Positions 13,851-28,824 of a stretch of 64,000 bases of DNA are shown piece after piece. The notes below the pieces were generated by a model, which saw nothing but the letters and a program-made list of their open reading frames with translations, made no database searches and was not told where the DNA came from. The DNA is from Slackia exigua ATCC 700122 (GTDB lineage Bacteria > Actinomycetota > Coriobacteriia > Coriobacteriales > Eggerthellaceae): contig NZ_GG700631.1 of NCBI RefSeq assembly GCF_000162875.1, positions 529,277 through 593,276 of the forward strand, in the 5' to 3' direction. The translations under genes and the position numbers were made by a program. Each line of letters starts with the position of its first letter. Position 1 is the first letter of the stretch.

Positions 13851-15275
13851 CTACCGAGACGCAGGCGTGCCATGAGGCTTCGCGCGAGACTTCAATTTCT
13901 CCATGTGGCGCGATGCCCAGCCTTCGATCTGACGCTGCTCGGCGCGCTCGAGCGCAAGGGCGTCGGGCGCGACGTCGCGCGTGATGCAGGACGACGCGCC
14001 GATGACGGCACCGTCGCCGATGGTCACGGGCGCGACGAGCATCGTGTCGGAGCCGATGAAGACGCCGTCGCCGATCGCGGTCCTATGCTTATGCACGCCG
14101 TCGTAGTTGCAGGTGATCGTGCCGGCACCGATGTTGACGCCCTCGCCCATCGTCGTATCGCCGATATAGGAAAGGTGCGGCACCTTGCTGCCCGCGCCGA
14201 TCGTGGACTTCTTGATCTCCACATGCGTGCCGACCTTGGCCCCTTCGCAGACATGCGCCTCGGGACGCAGGTACGCGCGCGGACCGCAGGAGGCGCCGTC
14301 ATCGACGACGGCGGAGACGGCCACCGTCTCGTCCACGGTGCAGCCCTCCCCCACGACCGTATCGGTCAGGCGCGTATGGGGGCCGATCACGCTGCCGCTC
14401 TCGATGGAAGTGCTTCCCAGAAGCATGACCGAGGGAAGGAGCTCGACGTCGGCGGCGATCGTGACGTCGGGTCCAATGAACGTGGAGGCCGGATCCCACA
14501 TCGTGACGCCGGCGGCCATATGGCGCGCATTGATGCGTTCGCGCATCGCGGCGGTCGCCTGCGCGAGCTGGACGCGGGAATTCACGCCCAATGCCTCGGA
14601 TGCGTCGTCGGCAGGAAGCGCGATCACGGCCCGACCGGCATCGCGGCAGATCTCCAGAACGTCGGTCAGATAGTATTCCCCCTGGGCGTTGTCGTCGCCC
14701 ACCTGCTCGAGGGCGTCGAAGAGCATCGGGGCGTCGAAGCAGTAGAAGCCGGAGTTGCATTCGGTGATGGCGGCTTGATCGGGCGTGCAATCCTTCTGCT
14801 CCACGATACGCATCACGTCATCCGAGCCGGCGGCGCGCACGATGCGTCCGTAGCCGGTCGGATCGGGCATGTCCATGGTGAGCACGACCACGGCAGCGCC
14901 CGCCTCTTCGCGGCGCGCGATAAGCGCGCGGATGGTTTCGGGCTTGATGAGGGGGCAGTCTCCTGACAAGACGACGAGCGATCCCCCGCGCACCCGGCCG
15001 TTTTCGGAAAACGCTTCACGCGCGGCATTGACGGCATCGCCGGTGCCCAGCTGGCGCTCCTGCATGACGATGCGAACGTCGCCTTCCACGAGGGGCCGCA
15101 CTTGATCGGCGCCATGCCCGAGCACCGCGACCACGTCGTGGATGCCGGCGGCGCGGGCGGCATCCACGACCCAGCGAACCAGAGGCACGCCGAGAATCTC
15201 GTGCGCGACCTTGGGCTTTGCGGATTTCATGCGAGTGCCGGCCCCTGCAGCGAGAATGAGCGCCTGAGCTTCCAT
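13851..15275 (-). CDS. glmU: bifunctional UDP-GlcNAc pyrophosphorylase / glucosamine-1-P acetyltransferase
   Basis: Performs the last two steps of UDP-GlcNAc synthesis. The N-terminal uridylyltransferase half has LILAAGAGTRMKS (residues 6-18), QLGTGDAV and the YGRIVR stretch. The C-terminal half is a left-handed beta-helix of hexapeptide repeats (for example IGAGSKVPHLSYIGD and GAGTITCNYDG), with the acetyl-CoA-binding NYDG region intact. At 474 residues it is the normal length, with a basic C-terminal tail. The start at 15275 has AAGAAGG upstream. It follows glmM by 66 bp, putting both enzymes of the pathway in one transcript. Confidence 0.97.
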   Translation of the reverse strand: MEAQALILAAGAGTRMKSAKPKVAHEILGVPLVRWVVDAARAAGIHDVVAVLGHGADQVRPLVEGDVRIVMQERQLGTGDAVNAAREAFSENGRVRGGSLVVLSGDCPLIKPETIRALIARREEAGAAVVVLTMDMPDPTGYGRIVRAAGSDDVMRIVEQKDCTPDQAAITECNSGFYCFDAPMLFDALEQVGDDNAQGEYYLTDVLEICRDAGRAVIALPADDASEALGVNSRVQLAQATAAMRERINARHMAAGVTMWDPASTFIGPDVTIAADVELLPSVMLLGSTSIESGSVIGPHTRLTDTVVGEGCTVDETVAVSAVVDDGASCGPRAYLRPEAHVCEGAKVGTHVEIKKSTIGAGSKVPHLSYIGDTTMGEGVNIGAGTITCNYDGVHKHRTAIGDGVFIGSDTMLVAPVTIGDGAVIGASSCITRDVAPDALALERAEQRQIEGWASRHMEKLKSRAKPHGTPASR

Positions 15276-15341
15276 GGAATACCTTCTTACTGTACGGGCC
15301 TTCGAAGACGCCTGTCCGAAAGCCGGATGACGTTTCTGGAG

Positions 15342-16688
15342 TTACGCGAGCTCGCGCTCGACGACGGCGGCGATGGATTCGGCGCAGCTTCGAGCGATCT
15401 CTGCGCGCGAAGCCTCCACCATGACGCGCACGACAGGCTCGGTGCCGCTCGTGCGCACGAGCACGCGGCCATCCGAACCCATCCGAACTTCCGCGGCGGC
15501 GACGGCATCGCGCACGGGAACGCAGCCTTCGAGCGCGTGCTTGTCGCGCACGCGCACGTTGACGAGCATCTGGGGAAAGCGCTTCATGATCGCGATGGCG
15601 TCTTCGACCGTGCGGCCGCTGCGGCGCACGGCGCAGAGGAACTGGCAGGCGGTCATGAGACCGTCGCCCGTGGAATTGTAGTCGAGCAGGATCATATGCC
15701 CCGACTGCTCGCCGCCGAGAGCGAACCCGCCGGCGAGCATCTCCTCGAGCACGTACCGGTCGCCCACCTTGGTCTGCTTCACGGCGATACCCAGATCCTC
15801 CATGGCGCGCACGAAGCCGAGGTTCGCCATGACCGTGGAAACCACCGTGTCGTGCGGAAGACAGCCGCGCATCTTCATATCGCGAGCGATGACGGCTTCG
15901 ACGATATCGCCGTCGATTTCCACCCCGTCCTTCGACAGGAGCATCACGCGATCGGCGTCTCCGTCGTGCGCGATGCCGACATCGGCGCCCGAGGCCGCCA
16001 TGACCTCGCGCAGCGGGTCAAGGCAAGTGGAGCCGCATCCGACGTTGATATCCATGCCGTCGAAATCGTCGTGCACGACCGTGACTTCGGCGCCCAGGCG
16101 ACGCAGGGCCTCGGCGCTCGTCAGGGACGAGGCGCCATGGCCGCAGTCGAGGGCGACATGCAGGCCCGAGAAATCGATGCCCTGGGATGCGACGGAATCC
16201 ACCGCATGGAGGATGTAGGTTTCCGCCGCGTCTTCCAGCTCTATCGCGACGCCCACGCCCGCGCCGACGGGCAACGCGTCGCCGTCGAGGGCATCGAGGC
16301 CTCCGGCCTCGACGAACGCTTGGATATCGTCCTCGACGGCATCGGGCAGCTTGAAGCCCTGCGCATCGAAGCACTTGATGCCGTTGTATTCGGGCGGATT
16401 GTGCGATGCGGAGATGACGATGCCGCCCGCCGCGCGCATCTCGCGCACGAGCAGGGCGACGGCGGGCGTCGGCACGATGCCCGCGATCAGGGCGTCTCCG
16501 CCGGCGGACGCGATCCCGGCCACGAGCGCGGCCTGCAGCATATCGCCCGAAAGGCGCGTATCGCGTCCGACGACGATGGGAGATCCCATGAACCTGACGG
16601 CCGCTTGGCCGAGACGCATCGCGAGCTCGCAGGTGAGCTCGGCGTTCGCAACGCCTCGGACGCCGTCCGTCCCGAAGAGTCGTGCCAT
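15342..16688 (-). CDS. glmM: phosphoglucosamine mutase
   Basis: Interconverts glucosamine 6-phosphate and glucosamine 1-phosphate ahead of GlmU. The 448-residue protein begins MARLFGTDGVRG, carries the phosphoserine loop GIVISASHNPPEYNG (active Ser in SASHNP), the magnesium loop DGDADR, the sugar-binding GGEQSGH and the C-terminal phosphate-binding RTSGTEP. All are intact. It is the first gene of the minus-strand run extending to 5732; the 241 bp between it and luxS must hold two divergent promoters, but I find no clean -35/-10 pair for either. Confidence 0.97.
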   Translation of the reverse strand: MARLFGTDGVRGVANAELTCELAMRLGQAAVRFMGSPIVVGRDTRLSGDMLQAALVAGIASAGGDALIAGIVPTPAVALLVREMRAAGGIVISASHNPPEYNGIKCFDAQGFKLPDAVEDDIQAFVEAGGLDALDGDALPVGAGVGVAIELEDAAETYILHAVDSVASQGIDFSGLHVALDCGHGASSLTSAEALRRLGAEVTVVHDDFDGMDINVGCGSTCLDPLREVMAASGADVGIAHDGDADRVMLLSKDGVEIDGDIVEAVIARDMKMRGCLPHDTVVSTVMANLGFVRAMEDLGIAVKQTKVGDRYVLEEMLAGGFALGGEQSGHMILLDYNSTGDGLMTACQFLCAVRRSGRTVEDAIAIMKRFPQMLVNVRVRDKHALEGCVPVRDAVAAAEVRMGSDGRVLVRTSGTEPVVRVMVEASRAEIARSCAESIAAVVERELA

Positions 16689-16929
16689 GAAAGGGTTCCT
16701 TCCCCCGAACGCCCCTTTCGAATGCGCGGCGACGAGACGCGCTGCGCAAGAGGCTGCCGATGAAGCCGCCGGAAGCGGCCGGAATATCCGATAAGCGCAG
16801 CCATTTTAGCATCACCGCACGCACGCGGCGAATCCCTTGGAATCCGCGCATTTCATGCGCGCGGCGCGCAAGGAGGGGTCAGGCGCGTATCATGCGGTTC
16901 AACGATAGATTCCCGTCAGGAGGCACGCC

Positions 16930-17388
16930 ATGGAACTCAAGAAGATCGCAAGCTTCCAGGTCGACCATACGACGCTCGAGCGCGGCATGTACACGTCGCG
17001 CGTCGATGGCGACGTCGTCACCTATGACATCCGCTTCAAGCGTCCGAACAAGGGCGATTACTTCACGACGGGCGCCGCCCACACGCTCGAGCACCTCTTC
17101 GCGACGTTCGCCCGCAGCGGAGAAGACTCCGACCGGGTGATCTACGTCGGCCCGATGGGCTGCCGCACCGGCTTCTACCTGCTGTGCCGGGATATGAAGC
17201 CCGCACGCGCCATCGCGCTCACGCAGGAGGCGTTGGCCTTCATCGCGGACTACGACGGCCCCATCCCCGGCGCGACGGAAGTCGAATGCGGCAACTACCT
17301 TGACCAGGATCTGCCCGGCGCACGGGTGGAAGCCGCCGAGATGGCGTGCGTGCTTGACGGCTGGACGCCGGAAAAGCTGGCGTACTAG
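16930..17388 (+). CDS. luxS: S-ribosylhomocysteine lyase
   Basis: Splits S-ribosylhomocysteine into homocysteine and DPD, the precursor of autoinducer-2, as part of the activated methyl cycle. The 152-residue protein has the metal-binding HTLEH (with FATFAR after it), the catalytic cysteine in PMGCRTGFYL and the third metal ligand in ECGNYLDQDL. Length and order match the family. A strong AGGAGG precedes ATG 16930. No pfs gene is adjacent. The gene is monocistronic and converges on the flavoprotein gene. Confidence 0.97.
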   Translation: MELKKIASFQVDHTTLERGMYTSRVDGDVVTYDIRFKRPNKGDYFTTGAAHTLEHLFATFARSGEDSDRVIYVGPMGCRTGFYLLCRDMKPARAIALTQEALAFIADYDGPIPGATEVECGNYLDQDLPGARVEAAEMACVLDGWTPEKLAY

Positions 17389-17457
17389 CGACATGCGGCA
17401 CAACCGCATGCGATGAGGATAGGATCTGCGAAGCTCGCTCCTCAAGATTAGAACGAA

Positions 17458-17501
17458 GAGGCGCGCTCGATCGGATGCCCTAACCGAACGGCGCGCCCCT
17501 C
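17458..17501. terminator. weak GC-rich stem-loop between luxS and the flavoprotein gene
   Basis: GAGGCGCGC at 17458-17466 can pair, with a bulge, to GCGCGCCCCTC at 17491-17501, and CGG/CCG pairs inside. It sits between convergent genes but lacks a clean U-tract, so it may only partly terminate. Confidence 0.3.
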
Positions 17502-17531
17502 GCTCGATTCGCTACTTTTCGCCCCGCTCCT

Positions 17532-19295
17532 CTATTTCCCGCCCAATACGTGGCCGATGGTGTAGCCCATCAGGCAGTTGCGGGTATGGCTTAAACAGTT
17601 CAGGTTATGCGGGTAGGTGTTGTAGAACATGCCGCCCGATGTGAGTCCGGCAGCATACAGACCCGGTATGGGACGATGCTCGCGATCGAGCACCTGGCAG
17701 TCCGTGTTCACCAGCAATCCGCCCGCCGTGCACAGGCCATCGGCATATTCCTTGGTCGCATAGAAGGGCGGGGTGTCTATGCTCGCCATCATATGGCCGG
17801 GGAAATTGAAGTCCTCGTCCTTGCCTGCGGAAGCCATTTCATTCCAGCGGGCGATGGTGGCCACGAACGCGTCCCGCGGCACGCCCATCATGTCCGCCAG
17901 CTCCTCGAGCGTATCGGCCTTCATATCGGTCTTCGTCGCCGCGCCCACCCATACGTCCTTAGGACCGTAGCACGAGCTTGAAGGCGTCCAGATCTTGTCG
18001 ATCTTCTCTGCGATGGCACCGTCGACGATATAGAAGTCATACGTTCCGGGCTGCGCTTGGATGGCCATAGCCAAATGGCCGTACGGTTCGTATTCGGCCG
18101 TGAAGCGACGGCCCAGCTTATTCACGCGCAGATACGGCATGAGCTGCTCGGGATCGAGCATGATGGCTTGCGGGAAATCGTCCTCGGCAGCGCCTACGGC
18201 AAGCCCCATCCGATGCCCGTCTCCCGTATTCCCCATGGCTGCCGTCAGCCAATGCCCGGGAATGCCGCGCGGACGGCAGCGCTCGCGCAGCATCTGCTCA
18301 TTATATTCATAGCCGCCAGTCGCAAGCACCACGCCCTTCGCGCAGTTGTACTGTTCGTACGCCTCGCCGCTCTTCACGATCACGCCCGTCACGGCGCCCG
18401 CATCGTCGGTCACCAGCTGCACCGCCGGCGTCTCGTACCGAATCTCCGCACCGGCATCGGTGATGAAGCCTGCGAGGATCTTCGCCAGATCGGCAGGAGC
18501 ATACGGAAGATTCAACGACGTATTCCACGACCGGCCGTATGCGGTCTTGTCGTATTCGTCGCGGAAATCAGGAAAATCCCCCGCAGCGAACGTAAGCGGG
18601 TAGTCATCGAGGTTCTGATTGTCGAAATGACCGACATACCAATCGACAGCCTCGCCGTTGGTGTCCAGGAAGTGCTTGTAGAGCGCTATGTCTCCTTGGA
18701 AAGCCGAATCGATGACGGCGTCGGAAAGCCAGGCCTCTTTATCGAAGCTCATACCCCAATGCTTATGCAGCATCGAATCGGTGCCGCCGATGGTGGCGGA
18801 GTTGTAATTACCGAACGGGTTCTTCTCCACGGCGACGGTATTCAGCCCCGCTTCGGCGCAGGCAAGCGCCGCTGCATCCCCGGCGGGACCGAGTCCGCAG
18901 ACCACCACGTCCACGTCATGCGTGGCAACGATCCGCGAGGGGTCTACCGGTTCGGACTCGAAGGCGACTTTACCCTCACCGGCGGCATTGATCGAAACCT
19001 CCTCAACCACCGGCCATACCGCCTGGCTCGGATCAAGCGTCTGCATGCTTCCCATGCCGGCGGAATCCGCAGCCCCGGTTGAAGAAGCCGACATGGCAGA
19101 AGCGCCGCTTCCCGACGCCGGCGCGTCTTTCGCGCAACCCACGATGCCGAGCGCGGCGGCCGTCGCACCGGTGGTGAGCGCCGCTTTCAAGAAATTCCTA
19201 CGGCTCAGCTCCGACCCGCGAACGGCACCATCGCTGCCGACCGATTCCTGATCGGACACCGATTCCCAACCGTGCATCGAATCTTGTCCATTCAT
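17532..19295 (-). CDS. Tat-exported FAD-dependent reductase of the fumarate/urocanate reductase family
   Basis: A 587-residue secreted flavoprotein. A twin-arginine signal (SRRNFLKAALTTG) is followed by a lipobox-like IVGC, so it may be anchored as a Tat lipoprotein outside the membrane. The FAD-binding fold starts at DVDVVVCGLGPAGDAAA, and the C-terminal TAGGLLVNTDCQVLD region is typical of FRD/SDH-like flavoproteins. No FMN-binding domain is fused, unlike soluble fumarate reductases. Relatives are abundant in Eggerthellaceae, where they reduce small organic acceptors or drugs in anaerobic respiration; the acceptor cannot be read here. ATG 19295 is preceded by GGGAGG. Divergent from a solo LuxR HTH gene that may regulate it. 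Confidence 0.9.
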   Translation of the reverse strand: MNGQDSMHGWESVSDQESVGSDGAVRGSELSRRNFLKAALTTGATAAALGIVGCAKDAPASGSGASAMSASSTGAADSAGMGSMQTLDPSQAVWPVVEEVSINAAGEGKVAFESEPVDPSRIVATHDVDVVVCGLGPAGDAAALACAEAGLNTVAVEKNPFGNYNSATIGGTDSMLHKHWGMSFDKEAWLSDAVIDSAFQGDIALYKHFLDTNGEAVDWYVGHFDNQNLDDYPLTFAAGDFPDFRDEYDKTAYGRSWNTSLNLPYAPADLAKILAGFITDAGAEIRYETPAVQLVTDDAGAVTGVIVKSGEAYEQYNCAKGVVLATGGYEYNEQMLRERCRPRGIPGHWLTAAMGNTGDGHRMGLAVGAAEDDFPQAIMLDPEQLMPYLRVNKLGRRFTAEYEPYGHLAMAIQAQPGTYDFYIVDGAIAEKIDKIWTPSSSCYGPKDVWVGAATKTDMKADTLEELADMMGVPRDAFVATIARWNEMASAGKDEDFNFPGHMMASIDTPPFYATKEYADGLCTAGGLLVNTDCQVLDREHRPIPGLYAAGLTSGGMFYNTYPHNLNCLSHTRNCLMGYTIGHVLGGK

Positions 19296-19461
19296 GACAT
19301 GCCTCCCTCTGACAGTTCGAGCGACTCCCTTACGTTCGCCCGCCATGCCGCCATCATGCCCGAGCCGCACGCTGAGCATATCCACCGAAAAGGTAGATAT
19401 TTCCATGAACGCTGTTCGAATGGGTAGAATGAGCCTTCCATACGAAGGACGGAGGCGTTTG

Positions 19462-19731
19462 ATGGAAGAATCCATCGGTTTCGTCGAACAATCTGACCGC
19501 CTATCCGCCGCATTCGCGCGCACCATAGGTCTGACCCCGAGGGAGGCCGAGATCTTCCTCTTGCTTGCACGCGGGCGAAGCATGCCGCGCATCGCCCATG
19601 AACTCGTTCTTGCCGAAGGCACCGTGAAGACCCATGTGCGCCATATCTATCAGAAAGCAGACGTTTCCCACCGGCAGGAGCTTATCGATAGATACTCGAC
19701 ATTCCTCAACGAAGCGAGGCAGACGCATTGA
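19462..19731 (+). CDS. solo LuxR-type HTH transcriptional regulator
   Basis: An 89-residue protein that is almost only a GerE/LuxR DNA-binding domain: LTPREAEIFLLLARGRSMPRIAHELVLAEG leading into VKTHVRHIYQKADV. It closely parallels the C-terminal domain of the membrane regulator at 57717-59243 but lacks the membrane sensor. ATG 19462 has GGACGGAGG upstream; ATG 19431 is an alternative without a good site. It is divergent from the flavoprotein gene across 166 bp that contain AGGTAGAT and GGGTAGAAT, and is followed 69 bp later by a Crp/Fnr-type gene. Confidence 0.85.
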   Translation: MEESIGFVEQSDRLSAAFARTIGLTPREAEIFLLLARGRSMPRIAHELVLAEGTVKTHVRHIYQKADVSHRQELIDRYSTFLNEARQTH

Positions 19732-19800
19732 TCCGATCGACTGCGCATGGCGACGAATGGATGCCATGGCTGTTCAAAACGACATCGCAAGGAGGATTCC

Positions 19801-20478
19801 ATGCGTTCGGACATCGAGACCGACTTGAGCGGATCGCTTCCGGTCTGGAACGCGCTTGACGAGCTTGATCGCCGCTTGCTCGTCGAGCATGCGCATGCGC
19901 TGCATTTCAGCGCCGGCGCGCATGTCCACGGCATCGGAGACGAATGCATCGGCGTGCTGCTGGTGAAGACGGGTTCTCTGCGCGCGTACATGCTTTCGCC
20001 GAAATCCGGCAAGGAAATCACGCTCTTTCGGGTCGCAAGTCCCGACACCTGCGTGCTTTCCGCCGCATGCATCCTGCGCATGATCACGTTCGACATCTTC
20101 GTCGACGCCGTCGAAGACAGCGACGTCCTCGCCATAGATTCGGAGGCCTACCTGAGGCTGATGGAGCATTCGAGCGAAGTCGAGGCATACACGTACCGCC
20201 AGGCGGCCGAACGCTTCAGCGACGTGATGTGGATCATGCACCAGATCGTCTTCATGAGCTTCGACGAGCGCCTCGCCGTATTCCTGCTGGACGAGACGGC
20301 GCGCTCGGGCTCGCAGGCGCTGCATATGACGCACGATGAGATCGCACGCCATATGGGAAGCGCCCGCGAAGTCGTCTCGCGCATGCTCAAGTATTTCCAG
20401 CAAGAAGGGCTCGTCGACCTTTCTCGCGGATGCATCACGCTGCTCGATCGGCAGCGGCTTCACACGATCGCGTCGTGA
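19801..20478 (+). CDS. Crp/Fnr family transcriptional regulator
   Basis: A 225-residue regulator: a cyclic-nucleotide-binding-like beta barrel at residues 15-130, a long dimer helix around 140-170, and a C-terminal winged helix with THDEIARHMGSAREVVSRMLKYFQQEGLV. The CNMP-binding pocket signature of cAMP-type Crp is not obvious. A cysteine pair in DTCVLSAAC resembles clostridial-type family members, but I do not see the N-terminal FeS cysteines of E. coli Fnr. A strong AAGGAGG precedes ATG 19801. Position among redox genes suggests respiratory control. Its last 44 bp overlap the 3' end of the convergent oxidoreductase gene. Confidence 0.93.
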   Translation: MRSDIETDLSGSLPVWNALDELDRRLLVEHAHALHFSAGAHVHGIGDECIGVLLVKTGSLRAYMLSPKSGKEITLFRVASPDTCVLSAACILRMITFDIFVDAVEDSDVLAIDSEAYLRLMEHSSEVEAYTYRQAAERFSDVMWIMHQIVFMSFDERLAVFLLDETARSGSQALHMTHDEIARHMGSAREVVSRMLKYFQQEGLVDLSRGCITLLDRQRLHTIAS

Positions 20479-23400
20479 CGACGGCATCGCGGGTCAGATC
20501 GACATGTCCCGTCTTCAGATACTCGATGAACAGAGGGACGAGGTAGGGAACCAGTTCGGGAATATAGGTCGGCATGAGCGAGCCCATCGTCTTGGGAAGC
20601 AGCTCGGGCATGAGTTCGGCCATATCGGGTGGCATCTCGCCCATGAACGCTTCGACGAGCTCGATCATCTGCGGCATGACCTTGCCCATGATGGCAGGTG
20701 CCATCCTCGGGAACAGGACAGGCATCATCTTCGCCATGAGCGCAGGCCCTCCGGGAAGCTGCGCCATGGCGCGCATCATCGGCCCCATGCCCGCCGGCAT
20801 GGCATCAACCATGGCTCCGAACAGCGGCACCATGAACTCCGCCATGGCCTTGCGATCCATAAGACGGATGAACTTGTCGAAATACCCCCACATATAGCTT
20901 GTGTATACGTCCGATTTGGGAATATCATGCCCGGCAGCGACGGCGGTGACGCGAGCGAGGTCGTCGATCTCGAGCGGCAGGCCGAGCTTGTCGGCAGAAT
21001 CTCGCAGCTGCACCTGGCAGCAGGGGCATGCGGCGACCACCGTATGCGCGCAGGCGCTGCACGCTTCGCCGAGGCGCATGCCGCCCAGCACCGGCCCCGT
21101 CTCGATGTCGCTCACGAGCGTGATGACCGAGCCGCAGCATATACCCTGTTCGCGGTTGTGTTCCATCTCCACGTAATCGATGCCGGGAATAGCCTTGATC
21201 ATATCGCGCGGCGGTTCGTAGATGCCCTGCGCGCGACCCATGTGGCATGAGTCGTGGAACGTCACCGTCTTGCCGTCGAAGGGGTTTTCCGTAAGCTTGA
21301 GATCGCCGCGTCGGATTGCAGGCGCGATGAGCTCGGAATAGTGCATGGCCTCGATCTCGTAGGGTTCGCCCAGGCGTTCCGCCTCCTCGCGATAGAGATC
21401 TTTCCATACCAGCGCGCAGGCGGGGCACGAGGTGACCACCGTCGTGGCGCCGTGCGCGCGTGCCGCCGCCACGTTCTCGCGGTACATCTTCTCGAAAAGG
21501 TCCCATTTGCCGGCCATCTTCATCGGGATGCCGCAGCACTGCTCATCGGTCCCTAGATACGTCACCCGATAGCCGGCGTCCTGGAGCAGGCGGATCGTCG
21601 CCTCGGCGATGTCGTTTTCCACGTAGCTCGCCGTGCATCCGGCGAAGTACAGGATGTCGGCCTGCGGTTCGATCTTCGCGGCCACATCCGCGGGAACCCA
21701 ATCGGCGCGGCGATCGCGCTTGCCTGCCCAGATATCGCCCTCGCCCTCGAGCGCGGCGGCCATCATCTCGAAAGGCGGGAACGTTCCCTTCTTCTGCTCA
21801 TGGACGAGCTTCCCGCGCAGGACCATGCTGTCAGGTTCGATAGGCAGCTGCAGCTGGCAGCGCGTATCGCAGCGTTCGCAGGTCGTGCACCGCATGACGG
21901 CGTCGATGGCGTTGCGATCCCAGCTATCGCGCCCCCGGTAGATGTCGTCGATAACCGCATAGCGGCCGCGCGGCGACTGGCTCTCCCAGCCACGTCCGGC
22001 ATACTGCTCGCACGTGCGCACGCAGTACCCGCACCGGGCGCACGCATGCGCCGTGTAGGCGACCTCTCCCGGTATGCCGTGCCGTTCAGGCCCCAGGGCG
22101 CTCGCGTCGTAGGGCTTGGGCTTCGCCGCATTGGCGATCGGCCGTATGGCAGGTTCGAGAACCGAGGCGATTCCCATGAGTCGATCGAGCGTGCGACCGC
22201 CCTCCCCGCGCAATGCGAGCACTTTGCCGGGATTCATGATGCGTTGGGGATCGACGCGTTCCTTGAATCGTTCGAGCGAACGTAGCCGCTCGCCGCCGAG
22301 CACGGCGGTCGCCTGGCTGCGGAAGTACAGGCCGGTGGAATACGCGCTGCCCCCATGCCGTCGGGCGATCCTGATGGCGGAAAGCGCGAGCGCGAAGGCG
22401 AGGTTGAACGAGAACCTGCGATCATCGTGGGGGATATAGCCCAGCAAGACCACGTCGCCGCTTTTCGTGTACATGCCCTCCATGACGAAAGGCTGGCGGA
22501 TGTTCCTCTCGATATCGCCAAGCGTGGCCGCCAGCCCTTCGCGCGGCACGATGACCTCGGTCGGAACGATGGAGGGACCGATGCGCTTGAGCTTCATGGT
22601 ATTGGCCCGATCGGCCCATTCGTGCACCGCAGCCTCATCGTCCAGACGCTCGGCGCCGCACGCGGCGACGATCTCCGCAAGCGCAGGATCGATCGCCTCT
22701 GCACGGGAGCAGGGGAAGGCGATCATCACGAGATAGGATTCTGGCAGGCCGCGCTCGATCGCCGCAAGCCGCTCCTGTTCCGCCTTCTCGTATTCGTGGC
22801 AGCGGCGCCCCGGCAACGCACGCTTGAGCCTGACCGATGTCGGATTAAGAAAAGAAACCGACCACATCGGCAGCTCCCGTTCGCGAATGAGCGTCAAGCC
22901 CTTGTCGAGCGCTTCGATGGAAGGAAAGGACATGAGGCGCACCTCGGTCTCCTCGAGCGGGCGCGCTTTGAACGTGACCTGCGTGATGACGCCCGTGATG
23001 CCCTCGGCGTCGGCTATGCCGTCGCGCAGCTCTTCATCCGCGCATTCCCGAACGCTGCCATCCGGCAGGACGACGCGGGCGCGCAGGACGTTCTCCTTGA
23101 AAAGGCCGTATTCGTACGACCCGAACCCGCTGCCACCCTGAGCAAGCCATCCCCCAACGGTCGAACTGGGAAAGCTCGAAGGATACATGCAGAGATCGAG
23201 CCCTTGCGCTCGTATCTCATAGGCAATGTCTTCCCAGACTGCGCCTGCCTCGCAGGTGACTTCGAGCGTTTCGGCATCGACGGACAGGATCCTGTCGAGC
23301 CCCGACACATCCATGACAAGCGCGCCTTCGCGAGGCTGGACGCCGCCGTAGCCGCTCGTGGATGCCGCACGAGGAACGACCGGCACAGCGTGCTCGCCGG

Positions 23401-23608
23401 CCTTTCGCAGGATCGCGACGATATCGTCTTCGGTGCGCGGCCGCACGACCGCCCCTGCCGTGCCTGTATTGACGAAAGGCCCTATCAGAGACGGCATCAC
23501 ACCTATGTCGCGAGAATAGAGCCTGCATTCGCGCGGGTCGGCGCTCACGCGTCCTTCCCCTACGATATCGACGAGCTGCTGTACGAAATCCTGGCTTACC
23601 CGGCCCAT
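20435..23608 (-). CDS. FAD-linked oxidase fused to a CCG-domain Fe-S protein with a Met/Pro-rich tail
   Basis: A 1057-residue single-chain relative of glycolate/D-lactate oxidase (GlcD + GlcF). Domains: PCMH FAD-binding domain (about 45-220, with STVGGWLAQGGSGFGS), FAD-linked oxidase C-terminal domain to about 470 (ERVDPQRIMNPGKVLAL), a dicluster ferredoxin domain (CARCGYCVRTC and CTTCERCDTRC) and two cysteine-rich CCG domains (CCGIPMK and CCGSVITL) that usually pass electrons to quinone or a membrane partner. The last 110 or so residues form an unusual Met/Pro-rich repetitive tail. ATG 23608 is preceded by GAAGGGGG. Oxidation of a 2-hydroxy acid is the family guess; substrate unknown. Its 3' end overlaps the convergent Crp gene by 44 bp. 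Confidence 0.9.
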   Translation of the reverse strand: MGRVSQDFVQQLVDIVGEGRVSADPRECRLYSRDIGVMPSLIGPFVNTGTAGAVVRPRTEDDIVAILRKAGEHAVPVVPRAASTSGYGGVQPREGALVMDVSGLDRILSVDAETLEVTCEAGAVWEDIAYEIRAQGLDLCMYPSSFPSSTVGGWLAQGGSGFGSYEYGLFKENVLRARVVLPDGSVRECADEELRDGIADAEGITGVITQVTFKARPLEETEVRLMSFPSIEALDKGLTLIRERELPMWSVSFLNPTSVRLKRALPGRRCHEYEKAEQERLAAIERGLPESYLVMIAFPCSRAEAIDPALAEIVAACGAERLDDEAAVHEWADRANTMKLKRIGPSIVPTEVIVPREGLAATLGDIERNIRQPFVMEGMYTKSGDVVLLGYIPHDDRRFSFNLAFALALSAIRIARRHGGSAYSTGLYFRSQATAVLGGERLRSLERFKERVDPQRIMNPGKVLALRGEGGRTLDRLMGIASVLEPAIRPIANAAKPKPYDASALGPERHGIPGEVAYTAHACARCGYCVRTCEQYAGRGWESQSPRGRYAVIDDIYRGRDSWDRNAIDAVMRCTTCERCDTRCQLQLPIEPDSMVLRGKLVHEQKKGTFPPFEMMAAALEGEGDIWAGKRDRRADWVPADVAAKIEPQADILYFAGCTASYVENDIAEATIRLLQDAGYRVTYLGTDEQCCGIPMKMAGKWDLFEKMYRENVAAARAHGATTVVTSCPACALVWKDLYREEAERLGEPYEIEAMHYSELIAPAIRRGDLKLTENPFDGKTVTFHDSCHMGRAQGIYEPPRDMIKAIPGIDYVEMEHNREQGICCGSVITLVSDIETGPVLGGMRLGEACSACAHTVVAACPCCQVQLRDSADKLGLPLEIDDLARVTAVAAGHDIPKSDVYTSYMWGYFDKFIRLMDRKAMAEFMVPLFGAMVDAMPAGMGPMMRAMAQLPGGPALMAKMMPVLFPRMAPAIMGKVMPQMIELVEAFMGEMPPDMAELMPELLPKTMGSLMPTYIPELVPYLVPLFIEYLKTGHVDLTRDAVVTTRSCEAAADRAA

Positions 23609-23701
23609 TGCCGTCCCCCTTCCCCTGCGCATCCAGCGCGGTTCGACGCGTGGCGCGGTATTTCCGACGCATCCAACTGTGCGCCTGGAAAGGGAACGCT
23701 G

Positions 23702-23720
23702 TCGGTGACTTCGTCACTGA
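23702..23720. promoter_or_regulatory. inverted repeat upstream of the FAD/Fe-S oxidase gene
   Basis: GTGAC-TTC-GTCAC (23705-23717) is a perfect 5+5 palindrome, extended by TC/GA on the outside after one mismatch. It lies about 95 bp upstream of the gene starting at 23608. A regulator site is possible; no clear promoter hexamers were found nearby. The rest of 23609-23895 shows nothing else. Confidence 0.35.
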
Positions 23721-23895
23721 GCCGATACGCACGCGACTGGCATGGAAGCCGAATCGACGGCGGGCGAATCGCCGAGATCAACGCCATCGAGGCTGAACGC
23801 CGGTTTCTCCGGCAAGGTTGCTGCGAAAAAAGCGGGGCTCGAGCTTGAGCCGGAGCCCGTATCGTTCTTGCCTGTGCTTTTCTCTCCCGCATACG

Positions 23896-23921
23896 AAAAG
23901 AGCCCTCCCGAAGGAGGGCTC
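23896..23921 (-). terminator. rho-independent terminator of rplM-rpsI
   Basis: On the minus strand a perfect 9-bp stem GAGCCCTCC / GGAGGGCTC with a TTCG tetraloop is followed by TTTT. It lies about 30 bp past the rpsI stop codon. Confidence 0.92.
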
Positions 23922-23952
23922 TCGATACTGCAAGGGCAGCGATCGATGCGCG

Positions 23953-24345
23953 TTAGCGCTTGCTGAACTGCGGGCGCTTGCGGGCTTTCTTCAGGCCGTA
24001 CTTCTTGCGCTCGACCATACGGGGGTCGCGCGTGAGGAAACCGGCCTTCTTGAGCTCGGCACGATAATCGCCGGCATTCAGGAGGGCGCGGCTGATGCCG
24101 TGGCGCAGAGCGCCGGCCTGGCCGGAGATCCCGCCGCCGTTGCAGCGGGCGATGACATCGAAATGACCCACGGTGTCGGTCACCTTGAAGGGGGTCGACG
24201 CGAAGCTGACGAGGGCTTCGCGGCCGAAGTACATGGCGGCGTCGCGGCCGTTAACCGTGATCTTGCCGGTACCGGGAACCAGACGAACGCGTGCGACGGC
24301 GTTCTTGCGACGGCCGGTGCCGTAATACATTGCTTCACCTGCCAT
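23953..24345 (-). CDS. rpsI: 30S ribosomal protein S9
   Basis: A 130-residue ribosomal protein of the small-subunit head, whose C-terminal tail reaches the P-site tRNA. Family signatures are [16 protein letters not shown] near the start, [19 protein letters not shown] in the middle and the basic end RKRPQFSKR. It starts 2 bp after the rplM stop codon, the conserved rplM-rpsI pair, and ends at a strong terminator. Confidence 0.98.
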
Positions 24346-24347
24346 GA

Positions 24348-24785
24348 TTAGTTCTCCTCAATCTTGATCTCGCGGGGCTTCTGAGCAGCATGCGGATGCT
24401 CGGCACCGGCGTACACCTTCAGCTTCATGCCCATGGCACGACCAAGCGTGTTCTTCGGGAGCATGCCCTTGACCGCGTGCTCGATGACGCGCTCAGGATG
24501 CTTTTCCATAGCCTCCTGGAAGGTTTCCTTCTTCAGTCCGCCCGGATGGCCGGAATGGCGATAGTATTCCTTGCTGGTGACCTTGGTGCCGGTGACGCGG
24601 ATCTTGTCGGCGTTGATGATGATGACGAAGTCACCGGTGTCGACATGAGGCGTGTACTGCGGCTTGTTCTTGCCCTTGAGGATGGTGGCAGCCTTGGTGG
24701 CGACGCGGCCAAGAACCTGGTCGGTCGCATCGATAAGGACCCACTCGCGCTCAACCTCTTGCGGCTTTGCGTAATACGTCTTCAC
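24348..24785 (-). CDS. rplM: 50S ribosomal protein L13
   Basis: A 145-residue early-assembly protein of the large subunit. [47 protein letters not shown] and [10 protein letters not shown] are all typical. I choose GTG 24785 as start because GGAGGA lies just upstream and the protein then begins MKTYYAK as expected; the TTG twelve nt earlier overlaps the ribosome binding site. A promoter is visible about 150 nt upstream, leaving a long leader. Confidence 0.97.
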
Positions 24786-24935
24786 TATGTCCTCCAATAG
24801 GTGCGTTCATAATCAAAAGTGCCGCGTCCGAACCGCCCGGGTCCCACCCCGATGCCGATGGTCGAAGGCCTGGACTCCTTCTCGCATCGCGTCCTGTACG
24901 CAGCGTGTACGGGGCTTTTGAAAGCGAACTTCAGC

Positions 24936-24964
24936 ATTGTATGAATTCGCTGCGCGAGCGTCAA
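24936..24964 (-). promoter_or_regulatory. promoter of rplM-rpsI with a long leader
   Basis: Minus strand TTGACG (24964-24959), a 17-bp spacer and TACAAT (24941-24936). Transcription should start near 24929, giving an untranslated leader of about 145 nt (24929-24786), long enough for a ribosomal-protein leader RNA. The remaining intergenic DNA to 25130 is unremarkable. Confidence 0.75.
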
Positions 24965-25156
24965 TGAAAAGCGCCGTGAATCGCATCGGGCCGCGATGCT
25001 TTCCCACATGAAATCCATGAGCCTTGAAGATCGATGGGCGGCGAAAGAAACGAAGCTCTTCTCGGCTTCCGGACGAACGCCTTCCTTGAAAAAACCGATC
25101 GAATATGCCGTTCCCCGTTCGATTCATACCGAATTTGTGTGTATATATGCATTATT

Positions 25157-25184
25157 ACTGAATATTATTACATTTTTATTCATT
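25157..25184. promoter_or_regulatory. candidate ArgR (ARG box) region upstream of argC
   Basis: Two overlapping 18-bp windows (25157-25174 and 25167-25184) each match the E. coli consensus WNTGAATWWWWATTCANW with two mismatches. They lie in a conspicuous AT-rich block at 25131-25205. AT-richness alone inflates such matches and the boxes overlap, so only one could be used. Arginine repression of argCJBD is expected from family knowledge. Confidence 0.3.
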
Positions 25185-25209
25185 TTTATTATTATTTAAA
25201 CATAAAACT

Positions 25210-25239
25210 TTTATGCACTTGATCAAAAAATGATATGAT
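25210..25239 (+). promoter_or_regulatory. probable argC promoter
   Basis: TATGAT at 25234-25239 is a good -10. TTTATG at 25210-25215 is a weak -35 at 18 bp. Transcription would start near 25247, giving a leader of about 140 nt before the argC ATG; I see no T-box or attenuator in it. Confidence 0.5.
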
Positions 25240-25387
25240 CCATGTGCATGGAAGGCATCCCTGGAAGAGACGTTCGAGCGGCGTGGTCGCAGAACCGACA
25301 GGCGATGGTCTTTCGCGGGGAAAGAACTCCCGGCTTGAGGCCGACCGCCTCTCGTCGATGCGACGCTGAAAAGAAGGAAGAAGGGCC

Positions 25388-26527
25388 ATGGCTACGGCAG
25401 CGATCATAGGCGGAGCCGGATACGCAGGAGCGGAACTCATAAGGCTTCTCGATCGACATCCCTCGTTCGACCTGCGCGTCGTTACATCAGACGCCGACGC
25501 AGGCATGCCTGTCGCCGACGTCTACCCCGCGCTTGAAGGCATCGTGCCCGACACCTTCTCTCCGCACGATGACCCTGCGGCCCTCGAATGCGATGCGGCC
25601 TTCCTCGCCGTCCCCCATACCGCGGGCATGAAGCATGCGCGCCGCCTCGTCGAAGCGGGCGTCGCCGTGATCGACCTGTCTGCGGACTTCCGCCTGCCGC
25701 TTGAAACCTACGAAGCCGCCTATCGAACCGCGCACGCCTGTCCCGATCTGCTCGCACAGGCGGCGTTCGGCCAGCCGGAACTCAACCGCGATGCGCTTGA
25801 TGAGATGCACGACCGCCGTATCGCGGGATTTCCCGTCATCGTCGGGTGCGCAGGTTGCTTCCCCACCGCCGTCGCGCTTGCGGCCGCCCCCGCCTTGCGC
25901 GCAGGGCTCATCGATCTCGCCTTCCCCGTGATCGCCGACTGCCTGTCGGGCGTGTCGGGCGCCGGCAGGAAACCGACCGCGCGCACGAGCTTCTGCACGG
26001 CGAACGAAAGCATGGAGGCTTACGGGCTGCCGCGCCACCGTCACGAGCCCGAGATGGAGATGGAGCTTTCCCTGGCGCTGCCTCGCGATCCGGGCGACGA
26101 CCGTCCGGGATGCCCGCCTTCCCGCGTGGACGCGCCGGGCCTTTCGGCGTCCGCGCCGAAAACGCCGCAGGTCATGTTCACACCGCATCTCGTTCCTGTA
26201 TCGCGCGGCATGATCGCGACCGTGCACCTGCGCCTCGGCTCCCATGCCGACCCGGCGCGATTCCGACGAGCCTACGAAGACGCCTACGCCTCAAGCCCGT
26301 TCGTCCGCGTGCTGAAGGAAGGCGCGTCGCCGAGAAGCTCCTCGGTCATGGGCACCAACGATGCCCGGATCGGGCTGTTCCCCGATCGGAAGGACGGCTG
26401 GGCGACGGCGGTCTGCGCCATCGACAACCTCGGCAAAGGCGCCGCCGGCCAGGCGGTTCAAGTCGCCAACATCGTATTCGGCTTCGACGAGAGCGAAGGA
26501 CTGCTCGGATTGGCAAGGGCGCTATGA
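25388..26527 (+). CDS. argC: N-acetyl-gamma-glutamyl-phosphate reductase
   Basis: Third step of arginine synthesis: NADPH-dependent reduction of N-acetylglutamyl phosphate. The Rossmann start IIGGAGYAGAELIRLL, the ligand loop DLSADFRL and the catalytic cysteine in CAGCFPT (Cys157) are intact, as are the HRHEPEME stretch and FTPHLVPVSRGM. At 379 residues it is about 30 longer than usual; the extra lies near residues 230-258 as a Pro/Asp/Arg-rich loop. AAGGAAGAAGGG precedes ATG 25388. It overlaps argJ by ATGA, indicating translational coupling. Confidence 0.97.
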   Translation: MATAAIIGGAGYAGAELIRLLDRHPSFDLRVVTSDADAGMPVADVYPALEGIVPDTFSPHDDPAALECDAAFLAVPHTAGMKHARRLVEAGVAVIDLSADFRLPLETYEAAYRTAHACPDLLAQAAFGQPELNRDALDEMHDRRIAGFPVIVGCAGCFPTAVALAAAPALRAGLIDLAFPVIADCLSGVSGAGRKPTARTSFCTANESMEAYGLPRHRHEPEMEMELSLALPRDPGDDRPGCPPSRVDAPGLSASAPKTPQVMFTPHLVPVSRGMIATVHLRLGSHADPARFRRAYEDAYASSPFVRVLKEGASPRSSSVMGTNDARIGLFPDRKDGWATAVCAIDNLGKGAAGQAVQVANIVFGFDESEGLLGLARAL

Positions 26528-27837
26528 GTTTCACCACGGACTTCTACGATATCTCCGATCTGATGCTTGAGACGCAGGTCGAAGCAGAGGGCGTCGCGTT
26601 CGAGCCGCTCGCGCGCGGCGGCGTGACGAGCGCGCGGGGATTTAGCGCGGCCGGCGTCGCCGGAGGCTTCCGCGAAAACGAACCCGAACGGCTCGACCTG
26701 GCGCTCATCAGGAGCGAAACGGTCGCGCGCTGCGCCGGCATGTTCACGCGCAACGAATTCTTCGCAGCACCCGTCGCCGTCTGCCGCGCGCATGCAGCGG
26801 CGGGAAGCGCCCGCGGCGTGATCGTCAATTCAGGTCGCGCCAACGCCGCGACCGGCACCGTCGGGCTCGGCAACGCCGAGGAGATGGCCCGCATGGGCGC
26901 CGAGGCCATCGGCTGCCTTCCCGAAGAGGTGCTCATCGCCTCGACCGGAGTCATCGGGCAGCAGCTGCGCATGGACAAGCTGAGCGATGCCGTCGACGAG
27001 GCCGGACGTAAAGCATCCCCCGACGGAGGCCACGATGCGGCCTGCGCGATCATGACCACGGATACGCATCCGAAGGAATTCGCCGTGAGCTGGCAATCCA
27101 AAGACCCCTCCTTCGCCGGCACGACGTTCACCGTCGGCGGCATGGCGAAAGGGTCGGGCATGATCATGCCGAACATGGCCACGATGATCGCCGTGATCGC
27201 GACCGATGCGCCGCTGGGCCAGACGGCCTGCCGGCAGGCGCTGCATCCGGCGGTCGATACGTCGTTCAACCGCGTGACCGTCGACGGGGATTCCTCCACC
27301 AACGACACCTGCCTGCTGCTCGCGAACGGTGCGGCCGTCGAAGGAACCGGCGCGGGATGGATCGAGCCGGGCAGCCAGGCCTACGCCGAGGCCGCCGCAG
27401 CGATCAAGCTCGTCTGCACCACCCTCGCGCGCGCGATGGCGGCCGACGGCGAAGGAGCCACGAAGCTCGTCACCATACACGTGAAGGGCGCTGAAAACGA
27501 CGGGCAGGCCGAAGCCGCCGCGCGTACCGTCGCGAATTCCGAGCTAGTCAAGACGGCTATCTTCGGACATGACGCCAACTGGGGCCGCGTCGCCGCCGCG
27601 ATCGGGCGCAGCGGCGCGCATATGGACCAAACGCGTATTTCAATCGACTTCCTAGGCATCCGCGTGTTCGATCGGGGGCTTCCAGCCCCCTTCGACGAGG
27701 AACGCATGCTCGGGCTCTTCGAAGACGACGAGATCCTCATTTCCGTCGACCTGGCGCTCGGCAATGGAGAGGCCACGATTTGGACCTGCGATTTAAGCCA
27801 CGAATACATCACGATCAACGGTTCGTACCGCAGCTAA
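26524..27837 (+). CDS. argJ: bifunctional ornithine acetyltransferase / N-acetylglutamate synthase
   Basis: Recycles the acetyl group from N-acetylornithine to glutamate. The 437-residue precursor contains the self-cleavage and nucleophile motif KGSGMIMPNMATM, with Thr220 as the expected new N-terminus of the beta chain. The oxyanion-hole TG pair in IASTGVIGQQL and the C-terminal ISVDLALGNGEATIWTCDLS are present. The true start is ATG 26524 inside the argC stop (ATGA overlap); the frame stays open upstream only as an argC shadow. Having argJ in a cyclic pathway fits the absence of argE here. Confidence 0.97.
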   Translation: MSFTTDFYDISDLMLETQVEAEGVAFEPLARGGVTSARGFSAAGVAGGFRENEPERLDLALIRSETVARCAGMFTRNEFFAAPVAVCRAHAAAGSARGVIVNSGRANAATGTVGLGNAEEMARMGAEAIGCLPEEVLIASTGVIGQQLRMDKLSDAVDEAGRKASPDGGHDAACAIMTTDTHPKEFAVSWQSKDPSFAGTTFTVGGMAKGSGMIMPNMATMIAVIATDAPLGQTACRQALHPAVDTSFNRVTVDGDSSTNDTCLLLANGAAVEGTGAGWIEPGSQAYAEAAAAIKLVCTTLARAMAADGEGATKLVTIHVKGAENDGQAEAAARTVANSELVKTAIFGHDANWGRVAAAIGRSGAHMDQTRISIDFLGIRVFDRGLPAPFDEERMLGLFEDDEILISVDLALGNGEATIWTCDLSHEYITINGSYRS

Positions 27838-27855
27838 CGGATCCAAGGGGGCACC

Positions 27856-28824
27856 ATGCAATACGCTAAGGATATCGATCGCGCAGGCGGCGAAGAACGA
27901 GCGCACACGCTGATCCAGGGCCTGCCGTGGATCAAGAGCGCCACCGGCAAGACCATCGTCATCAAGTACGGCGGCGCCGCGATGGAGAATGCCGAGCTCA
28001 TGACCAGCGTCATGACCGATATCCTGCTGCTGAAGCTCATCGGGGTCAATCCGGTCATCGTGCATGGAGGCGGCAAGGCCATCAACCGGATGCTCGCCGC
28101 TCTCGGCATAGAATCCGTCTTCGAAGGCGGTCTGCGCGTGACCGACGACGCCACGATGGATATCGTGCAGATGGTACTGAAAGGCCAGGTGAATTCCCAG
28201 CTCGTCAACGAGCTCAATCTGCATGGCAACATCGCCGTCGGCATGTGCGGAAACGATGCCGGAACGCTGAAAGCCGTACCCATATCGCCCGAACTCGGCC
28301 GCGTGGGACACATCGTCGAGGTCGATACGCGCCATGTCGAGGACCTGATCGAGGGAAACTACATTCCCATCATCGCGAGTCTCGCTGCGGCGGCCGATCC
28401 GCATGACGAGGGCGTGTTCAACATCAACGCCGACGTTGCAGCTGGAGAGATAGCCGCGGCCATCCACGCCCATAAGATCATCTTCCTCACCGACGTGGAC
28501 GGCCTCTATGAAAACTATCCCGATCCGGGTTCCTTGATCGCAAGCATGACGCAGGAAGATGTCGAGGGCCTCATCGATTCCGGGAAACTCGCGAGCGGCA
28601 TGATCCCGAAGATCCGAGCCTGCACGCACGCGCTTGGGGAAGGAATCCCGCGCGCGCATATCATCAACGGCACCATCCCCCATGCGCTTCTGCTCGAACT
28701 GTTGACCGACCAAGGCATCGGCACGATGATCGCCCGATCGGACAACGCGGACGACGCGAAACTGAAGCGCCACGCGCTCGCCGGCATCGCGACGCGCCTG
28801 ATCGAAAACCTTCCCAAGGAATAG
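27856..28824 (+). CDS. argB: acetylglutamate kinase
   Basis: Phosphorylates N-acetylglutamate, usually the feedback-controlled step. The 322-residue amino-acid-kinase fold shows VIKYGGAAM, IVHGGGKAINRML, NINADVAAGEIA and FLTDVDGLYENYPD. An N-terminal helix of about 25 residues precedes the kinase core, as in arginine-sensitive hexameric enzymes, which suggests arginine feedback. AAGGGGGCACC precedes ATG 27856, 18 bp after argJ. Confidence 0.97.
   Translation: MQYAKDIDRAGGEERAHTLIQGLPWIKSATGKTIVIKYGGAAMENAELMTSVMTDILLLKLIGVNPVIVHGGGKAINRMLAALGIESVFEGGLRVTDDATMDIVQMVLKGQVNSQLVNELNLHGNIAVGMCGNDAGTLKAVPISPELGRVGHIVEVDTRHVEDLIEGNYIPIIASLAAAADPHDEGVFNINADVAAGEIAAAIHAHKIIFLTDVDGLYENYPDPGSLIASMTQEDVEGLIDSGKLASGMIPKIRACTHALGEGIPRAHIINGTIPHALLLELLTDQGIGTMIARSDNADDAKLKRHALAGIATRLIENLPKE

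Follow-up and report, generated by a model that had tools for sequence, protein, structure and literature searches.

Past the last recognizable electron-transfer domain of an oxidoreductase encoded by Slackia exigua ATCC 700122, the reading frame continues into a stretch dominated by methionine and proline. What this end of the protein is, and what it may do for the enzyme, is the question raised by this locus, analysed here in a window of 64,000 nucleotides (NZ_GG700631.1, positions 529,277 to 593,276 of the forward strand). An initial annotation had described it as a loosely repeated tail on a FAD/Fe-S oxidase and had proposed that it could pack against the membrane, bind a partner or coordinate copper or heme. 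The features of the locus, in window coordinates, are the following.

20435..23632, minus strand: whole gene, single-chain oxidoreductase of 1065 aa with FAD, two 4Fe-4S and two CCG modules and a Met/Pro C-terminal domain (ORF and Pfam)
22199..23599, minus strand: FAD half, residues 12-478, FAD_binding_4 and FAD-oxidase_C (Pfam, fold alignment)
21851..22051, minus strand: two 4Fe-4S motifs, residues 528-594 (Pfam, alignment)
20918..21661, minus strand: two CCG (cysteine-rich) domains, residues 658-905 (Pfam, alignment)
20507..20893, minus strand: conserved Met/Pro domain, residues 914-1042 (homology, alignments, profile searches)
20747..20893, minus strand: predicted collar of short helices, residues 914-962 (AlphaFold2, alignment)
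20642..20749, minus strand: predicted hairpin arm 1, residues 962-997, with a P-x-hydrophobic-hydrophobic register (AlphaFold2, alignment)
20510..20629, minus strand: predicted hairpin arm 2, residues 1002-1041, with the same P-x-hydrophobic-hydrophobic register (AlphaFold2, alignment)
19747..20478, plus strand: Crp/Fnr-type regulator gene, convergent with the enzyme gene and sharing 44 bases with its 3' end (ORF and Pfam)

The modules of the enzyme body are preserved throughout its relatives. Alignment A2 comprises the window protein and the products of 39 of the 54 loci described below, with nine cut, interrupted or masked frames, and six others by choice, left out. Pfam matched FAD_binding_4, FAD-oxidase_C, Fer4_17, Fer4_8 and CCG in all 40 chains, and all 19 cluster positions are fixed, the cubane residues 531, 534, 537, 541 and 582, 585, 588, 592 and the CCG residues 666, 699, 700, 736, 739 and 796, 832, 833, 869, 871, 872 each being Cys in 40 of 40 sequences. 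Since both CCG domains retain full Cys sets, they are likely to hold two noncubane 4Fe-4S clusters.

The FAD half has a fold in common with FAD-linked D-lactate dehydrogenases of the mLDHD, LctD and GlcD type (mLDHD 8jdy: Z 32.2, rmsd 2.4, 426 aligned; LctD 7qh2_C: Z 29.6), and the label of oxidase should read FAD-linked dehydrogenase-type oxidoreductase. In mLDHD-type dehydrogenases the His pair of the GHxGDGNxH motif and the His of the EHG motif have functional roles; comparison of two PDB sequences identified the second His of the former as the residue changed in the H405A entries. Both motifs are missing from the window protein, in which the EHG His aligns, within a weakly aligned region, with Tyr431, a position occupied by Tyr in all 40 sequences. 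A separate GlcD-like protein, introduced below, keeps both motifs. It is therefore uncertain that the substrate is a simple 2-hydroxy acid. The single-chain order FAD, 4Fe-4S, CCG is also that of E. coli YdiJ and of the Pseudomonas-type D-lactate dehydrogenase, and no Met/Pro tail is known in YdiJ-type single-chain dehydrogenases. The model for the YdiJ D-2-hydroxyglutarate dehydrogenase (NF049975) covered residues 60-218 of the window protein with 62.5 bits, far below its equivalog cut-off of 1350. Single-chain paralogues in the same bacterial family (L008 and L009; 31-32% identity), the former with Pfam matches to FAD_binding_4, Fer4_8 and CCG, stop after the second CCG domain and are devoid of the Met/Pro domain.

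Residues 508-903 of the model superimpose on M. smegmatis EtfD (9ojn) with Z 31.1 (rmsd 2.9, 376 aligned). This HdrD-like mycobacterial protein (rv0338c / MSMEG_0690) likewise has two 4Fe-4S sites and two CCG domains. In the available portions of PMC13083937, EtfD takes electrons from a separate ETF and is proposed to pass them via the Fe-S chain and heme to menaquinone, its five-helix membrane region carrying heme b; the cluster next to the heme and menaquinone is a cubane (D4) and not one of the CCG clusters, four Cys of one CCG domain bind a linear 3Fe-4S cluster, and the C-terminal region, of about 30 kDa, is disordered. The present enzyme differs by its N-terminal FAD half, its conserved and predicted helical Met/Pro tail, and the lack of the five-helix region. 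No transmembrane heme domain of the EtfD/HdrDE type was detected in the window protein, whose highest 19-residue Kyte-Doolittle mean, a crude measure, is 1.38, and no membrane partner gene was recognized by eye beside the enzyme gene in 15000-27000.

Several known lactate dehydrogenases were also considered. One of the tail genes (L177, 5443811-5446861) lies in a genome that we take to be that of M. acetivorans. The same genome contains a stand-alone GlcD-like gene (L194, about 5.713-5.716 Mb) with GHIGDGNLH and EHGVG, a CCG-type gene behind it and a transglycosylase-like gene, identified by eye, directly adjacent; unlike L194, the tail enzyme of this genome is without the GHxGDGNxH and EHG motifs. 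The known lactate dehydrogenase MA4631 is encoded beside the transglycosylase MA4632 (PMC11619418, in excerpt). The stand-alone gene fits this arrangement, and the tail enzyme is very likely not MA4631; the tail gene has a second transglycosylase-like gene some 8 kb away, so this argument turns on direct adjacency. HVO_1697 of Haloferax (PMC8305020 and PMC7714728, both in excerpt) was a further lactate dehydrogenase considered for comparison, and a link to the lactate-induced AF0506/AF0507 of Archaeoglobus (PMC3949148, in excerpt) was dropped, the tail profile matching 2 of 55 genomes in the family around G641, a set that may or may not include A. fulgidus.

The compositional bias of the C-terminal end is real. 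The richest 129-residue segment of the protein holds 41 Met and Pro residues, against a maximum of 31 and a mean of 21.6 in 5000 whole-protein shuffles, and residues 914-1042 contain 18% Met and 13% Pro, compared with 2.7% and 5.5% in the preceding part of the protein. The location assigned to the tail, after the second CCG domain, agrees with the Pfam layout and with the model; its placement at the C-terminal end stands, but the boundaries set by homology, 914-1042, begin ahead of the interval originally given. That interval, 20500-20850, corresponds to residues 928-1044, with 21 Met and 17 Pro among 117 residues: the tail is indeed Met-rich with regular Pro, one Met in five being a slight overestimate (18% Met, 15% Pro), and the two strings cited as examples do occur, MAKMMPVLFPRM from residue 966 and MAPAIMGKVMPQM from residue 977. 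The literal last 110 residues contain 14 Met and 14 Pro and extend into a low-confidence end (1049-1065, pLDDT <50).

The tail is also hydrophobic, with a FILMVWY share of 47% against 32% in the body. A 19-residue Kyte-Doolittle mean above 1.6, a crude test, is reached by the body in 18 of 40 sequences and by the tail in three. Net charge of the tail is negative in 28, zero in five and positive in seven of the 40 sequences. Inspection by eye revealed no export signal in the window protein, which is hence presumably cytoplasmic. Considering that the tail is hydrophobic, sits after the CCG electron-transfer domains and belongs to a protein whose Kyte-Doolittle maximum is 1.38, membrane packing or partner binding would appear to be the better half of the functions initially proposed.

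The tail has homologs. Among 196 other genomes of the order, six encode a 59-62% identical protein including the tail and two a 31-32% identical protein ending before it (E 1e-100); the seven tails from the window and these six relatives show 80% mean column identity with one single-residue gap. A scan of the genome collection, seeded by two short tail peptide patterns and thus restricted to tails keeping one of them, identified 54 loci in bacteria and archaea. These belong to Actinomycetota (Coriobacteriia and others), Bacillota (Desulfosporosinus, Neobacillus and others), Dehalococcoidia (Chloroflexota), delta-proteobacteria, a Phycisphaerales bin (two places) and Methanoperedens. The match ends at most 24 residues from the end of the frame in 51 of the 54 loci, the exceptions being L053, which continues for 54 residues, and the two Phycisphaerales places, where the sequence is masked; 45 frames measure 998-1207 aa and the nine shorter ones are cut, interrupted or masked. 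The idea that the tail might be missing from close relatives, or be disordered and unconserved, is contradicted by its presence in all six order relatives of 59-62% identity and by its conservation and predicted helicity.

Of 396 genomes sampled from the phylum, 33 matched the tail profile and 34 the whole protein (E 1e-80), with 32 in common. The body search alone returned G037, a 32% identical paralogue stopping at residue 904, and G419, aligned at 40% identity to residue 1024 and unreported by the tail profile; G309 was found by the tail search only. The other whole-protein matches of at least 38% identity reach into the tail, are truncated where a contig stops or lie in pieces. The phylum of the Methanoperedens genome has the tail in 21 of 148 genomes (in G691 only as broken pieces), and the genus around G705, presumably Methanosarcina, has it in 23 of 30 (G691 and G732 in pieces). 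The broken frames of G691 (L192, C6:17000-25000) could be what remains of a decayed enzyme gene. No full-length match was obtained in five congeners of the window genome, two of which encode a distant GlcD-like protein. Occurrence across the phylum, genus, family and congener samples is thus patchy, and here the gene is an accessory one. Alignment A3, comprising the window tail, those of 32 of the 54 loci and three others (L068, L088 and L092), has 11 invariant columns across its 36 sequences. The tail is thus, practically beyond doubt, a conserved C-terminal domain common to bacteria and archaea and borne by the same FAD/4Fe-4S/CCG body.

This domain is under no name in the libraries searched, and the original statement that no standard domain explains it held for Pfam, NCBIfam, PDB sequence and Foldseek searches. 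The window tail had no Pfam match up to E 1, and 33 tails gave only sub-threshold matches to DUF6918 (3 of 33, best E 0.036) and HEAT_EZ (11 of 33, best E 0.31). NCBIfam had no match within the tail and PDB sequences none up to E 10. With the isolated tail model (mean pLDDT 73), the best Foldseek match had an E of 4.3 and VIA-align against nine chains gave no Z of 2 or above, an empty search that does not prove a new fold. The open-licence literature, in the portions of text available, yielded no paper naming such a tail.

AlphaFold2 modelled the full protein, with 40 sequences, at a mean pLDDT of 85 and a pTM of 0.80. The tail is predicted to fold as a helical collar followed by a long two-helix hairpin (helices 908-924, 927-933, 935-944 and 949-958; hairpin 962-997 / 1002-1041), with ten-residue pLDDT means of 81-92 over residues 901-1040. 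Similar helices were predicted for the isolated tail (33 sequences; mean pLDDT 73, pTM 0.58). The conserved residues of the collar are W915, F918, I922, L924, M934, M945, M949, M952 and M953. In the hairpin, the pattern initially termed loosely repeated turned out to be a four-residue register running through both arms. Pro is present in 65-100% of 34 sequences at columns 971, 975, 979, 983 and 987 of arm 1 and 1009, 1013, 1021, 1025, 1029 and 1033 of arm 2, each Pro often followed by a polar, charged or small residue and then by two mostly hydrophobic ones. Hydrophobicity peaks at 90 and 92 degrees in the two arms, a turn of roughly four residues, with only a weak signal at 100 degrees. This was computed on 34 of the 36 A3 rows, the two most diverged being left out, and periodicities as strong arose in 10 of 2000 and 0 of 2000 shuffles, which were scanned in 4-degree steps against 2 for the data, a slight bias favouring the data. 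The diverged tails L088 and L191 likewise have four as their commonest Pro-Pro distance. Helix in so Pro-rich a stretch is a prediction, and the regular Pro tetrads are well suited for testing structure-prediction methods. At least 95% of 40 sequences have Met at each of eleven positions, other Met columns accept Leu, Ile or Phe, and the tail alignments contain no conserved His or Cys.

Sequence divergence indicates that tail and body have a common history. Pairwise identities of the tail correlate with those of the Fe-S half (r 0.87) and of the FAD half (r 0.83), values inflated by related sequences but reached in 0 of 2000 permutations in either case, which agrees with tail and body being one inherited unit. 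A 42-row tree, subject to the cautions that attach to its method, puts the window protein at the tip of a long branch, together with Eggerthellaceae and further Coriobacteriia bins. Two archaeal rows, one of them Methanoperedens, fall among bacterial rows within one clade, a nesting that suggests gene transfer between domains of life. In archaeal G576 (L191:3977-7050) the enzyme is split, between its 4Fe-4S and CCG parts, into two overlapping genes, FAD and 4Fe-4S coming first and CCG-CCG with a diverged tail second; in this split version the tail goes with the CCG module.

The genes surrounding the enzyme were surveyed in the window and the 54 loci. The 20 neighbours scanned with Pfam have no shared theme beyond one Crp-type gene. 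Crp-type genes of cluster c3 (one member Pfam-confirmed) occur at 14 loci, in 13 of them directly downstream of the enzyme gene, and those of cluster c19 (window member Pfam-confirmed) in the window and at L010-L012, lying upstream of the enzyme gene there. The recurrence of Crp-type genes while other neighbours differ suggests that a sensor of redox state or of a metabolite controls the gene, rather than a fixed operon partner. In the putative M. acetivorans genome (L177:6560-10862), a DnaD_N/HTH gene and a gene for a Fer4_5 4Fe-4S protein whose N-terminus is hydrophobic precede the tail enzyme on one strand. Genes resembling those of NiFe hydrogenase subunits (c7, c12 and c13; by eye) lie a few kb from the tail enzyme in several Coriobacteriia-type bins, among them L014, L018, L031, L047, L048 and L050. 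Among archaeal genomes with the tail, 10 of 21 have an HdrE/NarI-type cytochrome (PF02665), and among those without it 33 of 127, a comparison confounded by kinship and made with a profile that is weak for this group.

Tentatively, we favour a role for the tail as a peripheral docking domain that would give the Fe-S chain access to a lipid-soluble membrane carrier, such as menaquinone in bacteria and methanophenazine in Methanosarcina. Substrate electrons would pass from FAD through the two cubane clusters to the CCG clusters and leave beside the tail, whose Met-rich hydrophobic stripes might rest against the membrane or accommodate the carrier's isoprenoid chain; the tail would then do without transmembrane helices the job of the five-helix heme domain of EtfD. 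The conservation of the tail in register across bacteria and archaea, its co-variation with the body, its confidently predicted helices, the period near 90 degrees in both arms, its enrichment in hydrophobic residues, its retention on the CCG chain of the split archaeal enzyme and the Fer4_5 protein encoded ahead of the putative M. acetivorans gene are all consistent with docking. So is the fold of the Fe-S/CCG half, which is that of a proposed menaquinone donor (PMC13083937, in part), and a precedent is provided by class E complex II, whose amphipathic anchors may attach to the membrane at its periphery (PMC10238741, in part). The mostly negative or neutral charge of the tail is, however, atypical for a domain lying in the plane of an anionic membrane, a quinone site cannot be recognized in the tail enzyme, three of 40 tails exceed a 19-residue Kyte-Doolittle mean of 1.6, which makes the hydropathy test a crude one, and the membrane cofactors of EtfD adjoin a cubane cluster, so that its geometry may not transfer (PMC13083937, in part). 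The lower confidence of the isolated tail also counts against docking. Nearly as likely, and a distinct possibility, is a scaffold or oligomerization role for a structural hairpin, with arms that pack against one another, against the CCG domains or against the corresponding arms of a second subunit and make no lipid contact. Arm-arm packing can satisfy the single hydrophobic stripe of each arm, and the neutral to acidic charge suits it. Docking on the body would also account for the higher pLDDT of the tail in the whole protein (81-92) than alone (73), although the two predictions used different alignments. Such packing would leave the 11 near-fixed Met unexplained, since Leu or Ile should pack equally well.

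A protein partner, be it ferredoxin-like, a membrane 4Fe-4S protein or ETF, seems rather improbable as the docking target: the Fer4_5 gene of L177 and the transfer of electrons from ETF to EtfD, which has the same Fe-S fold (PMC13083937, in part), speak for it, but the recurrent adjacent gene at bacterial loci encodes a Crp-type regulator, which is no evident redox partner, and the 19 other Pfam-scanned neighbours are mostly unrelated to each other. Coordination of copper or heme has little support and is most improbable; near-invariant Met at 11 positions is what it would draw on, against the lack of conserved His or Cys, the exchange of other Met columns with Leu, Ile or Phe and a presumably cytoplasmic location. 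Equally hard to credit is a low-complexity, disordered extension without specific function: for all its biased composition, and the disordered C-terminal region of EtfD (PMC13083937, in part), the tail has a strict register with invariant columns, helices predicted at pLDDT 81-92, and a presence in those body homologues of at least 38% identity in the phylum sample that reach that far. The bolder proposal that the tail represents a new class of domain, a helical hairpin whose turn of about four residues is dictated by Pro in nearly every tetrad and whose fixed Met form stripes gripping the isoprenoid chain of menaquinone or methanophenazine, is in our view unlikely. The methionine bristles of SRP54 are flexible and greasy in this manner. 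If true, it would amount to a transmembrane-free coupling of FAD/Fe-S/CCG enzymes to the carrier pool in bacteria and methanogens.

Whatever its function, the tail marks an enzyme family across bacteria and archaea that has no specific name in the libraries searched. Should it couple the enzyme to membrane carriers, it would be a simple, genetically removable part for HdrD/EtfD-like Fe-S chains, and bear on the question of how such soluble chains reach the membrane.

Elsewhere in the window, a 152-aa ORF (16930-17388) resembles LuxS (S-ribosylhomocysteine lyase), with an HTLEH motif recognized by eye, and 17532-19622 encodes a FAD_binding_2 flavoprotein, flavocytochrome c / fumarate-reductase-like, with a TAT_signal match just below the Pfam cut-off; a LuxR-type regulator ORF (19294-19731) adjoins it on the opposite strand. 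Rfam had no match in 14000-28000. The window copy of the tail deviates at nearly fixed Pro positions (Arg927 and Gly939) and carries Gly983 in a mostly-Pro column; given these replacements and the long branch, this copy (20642-20893) may be under altered constraint.
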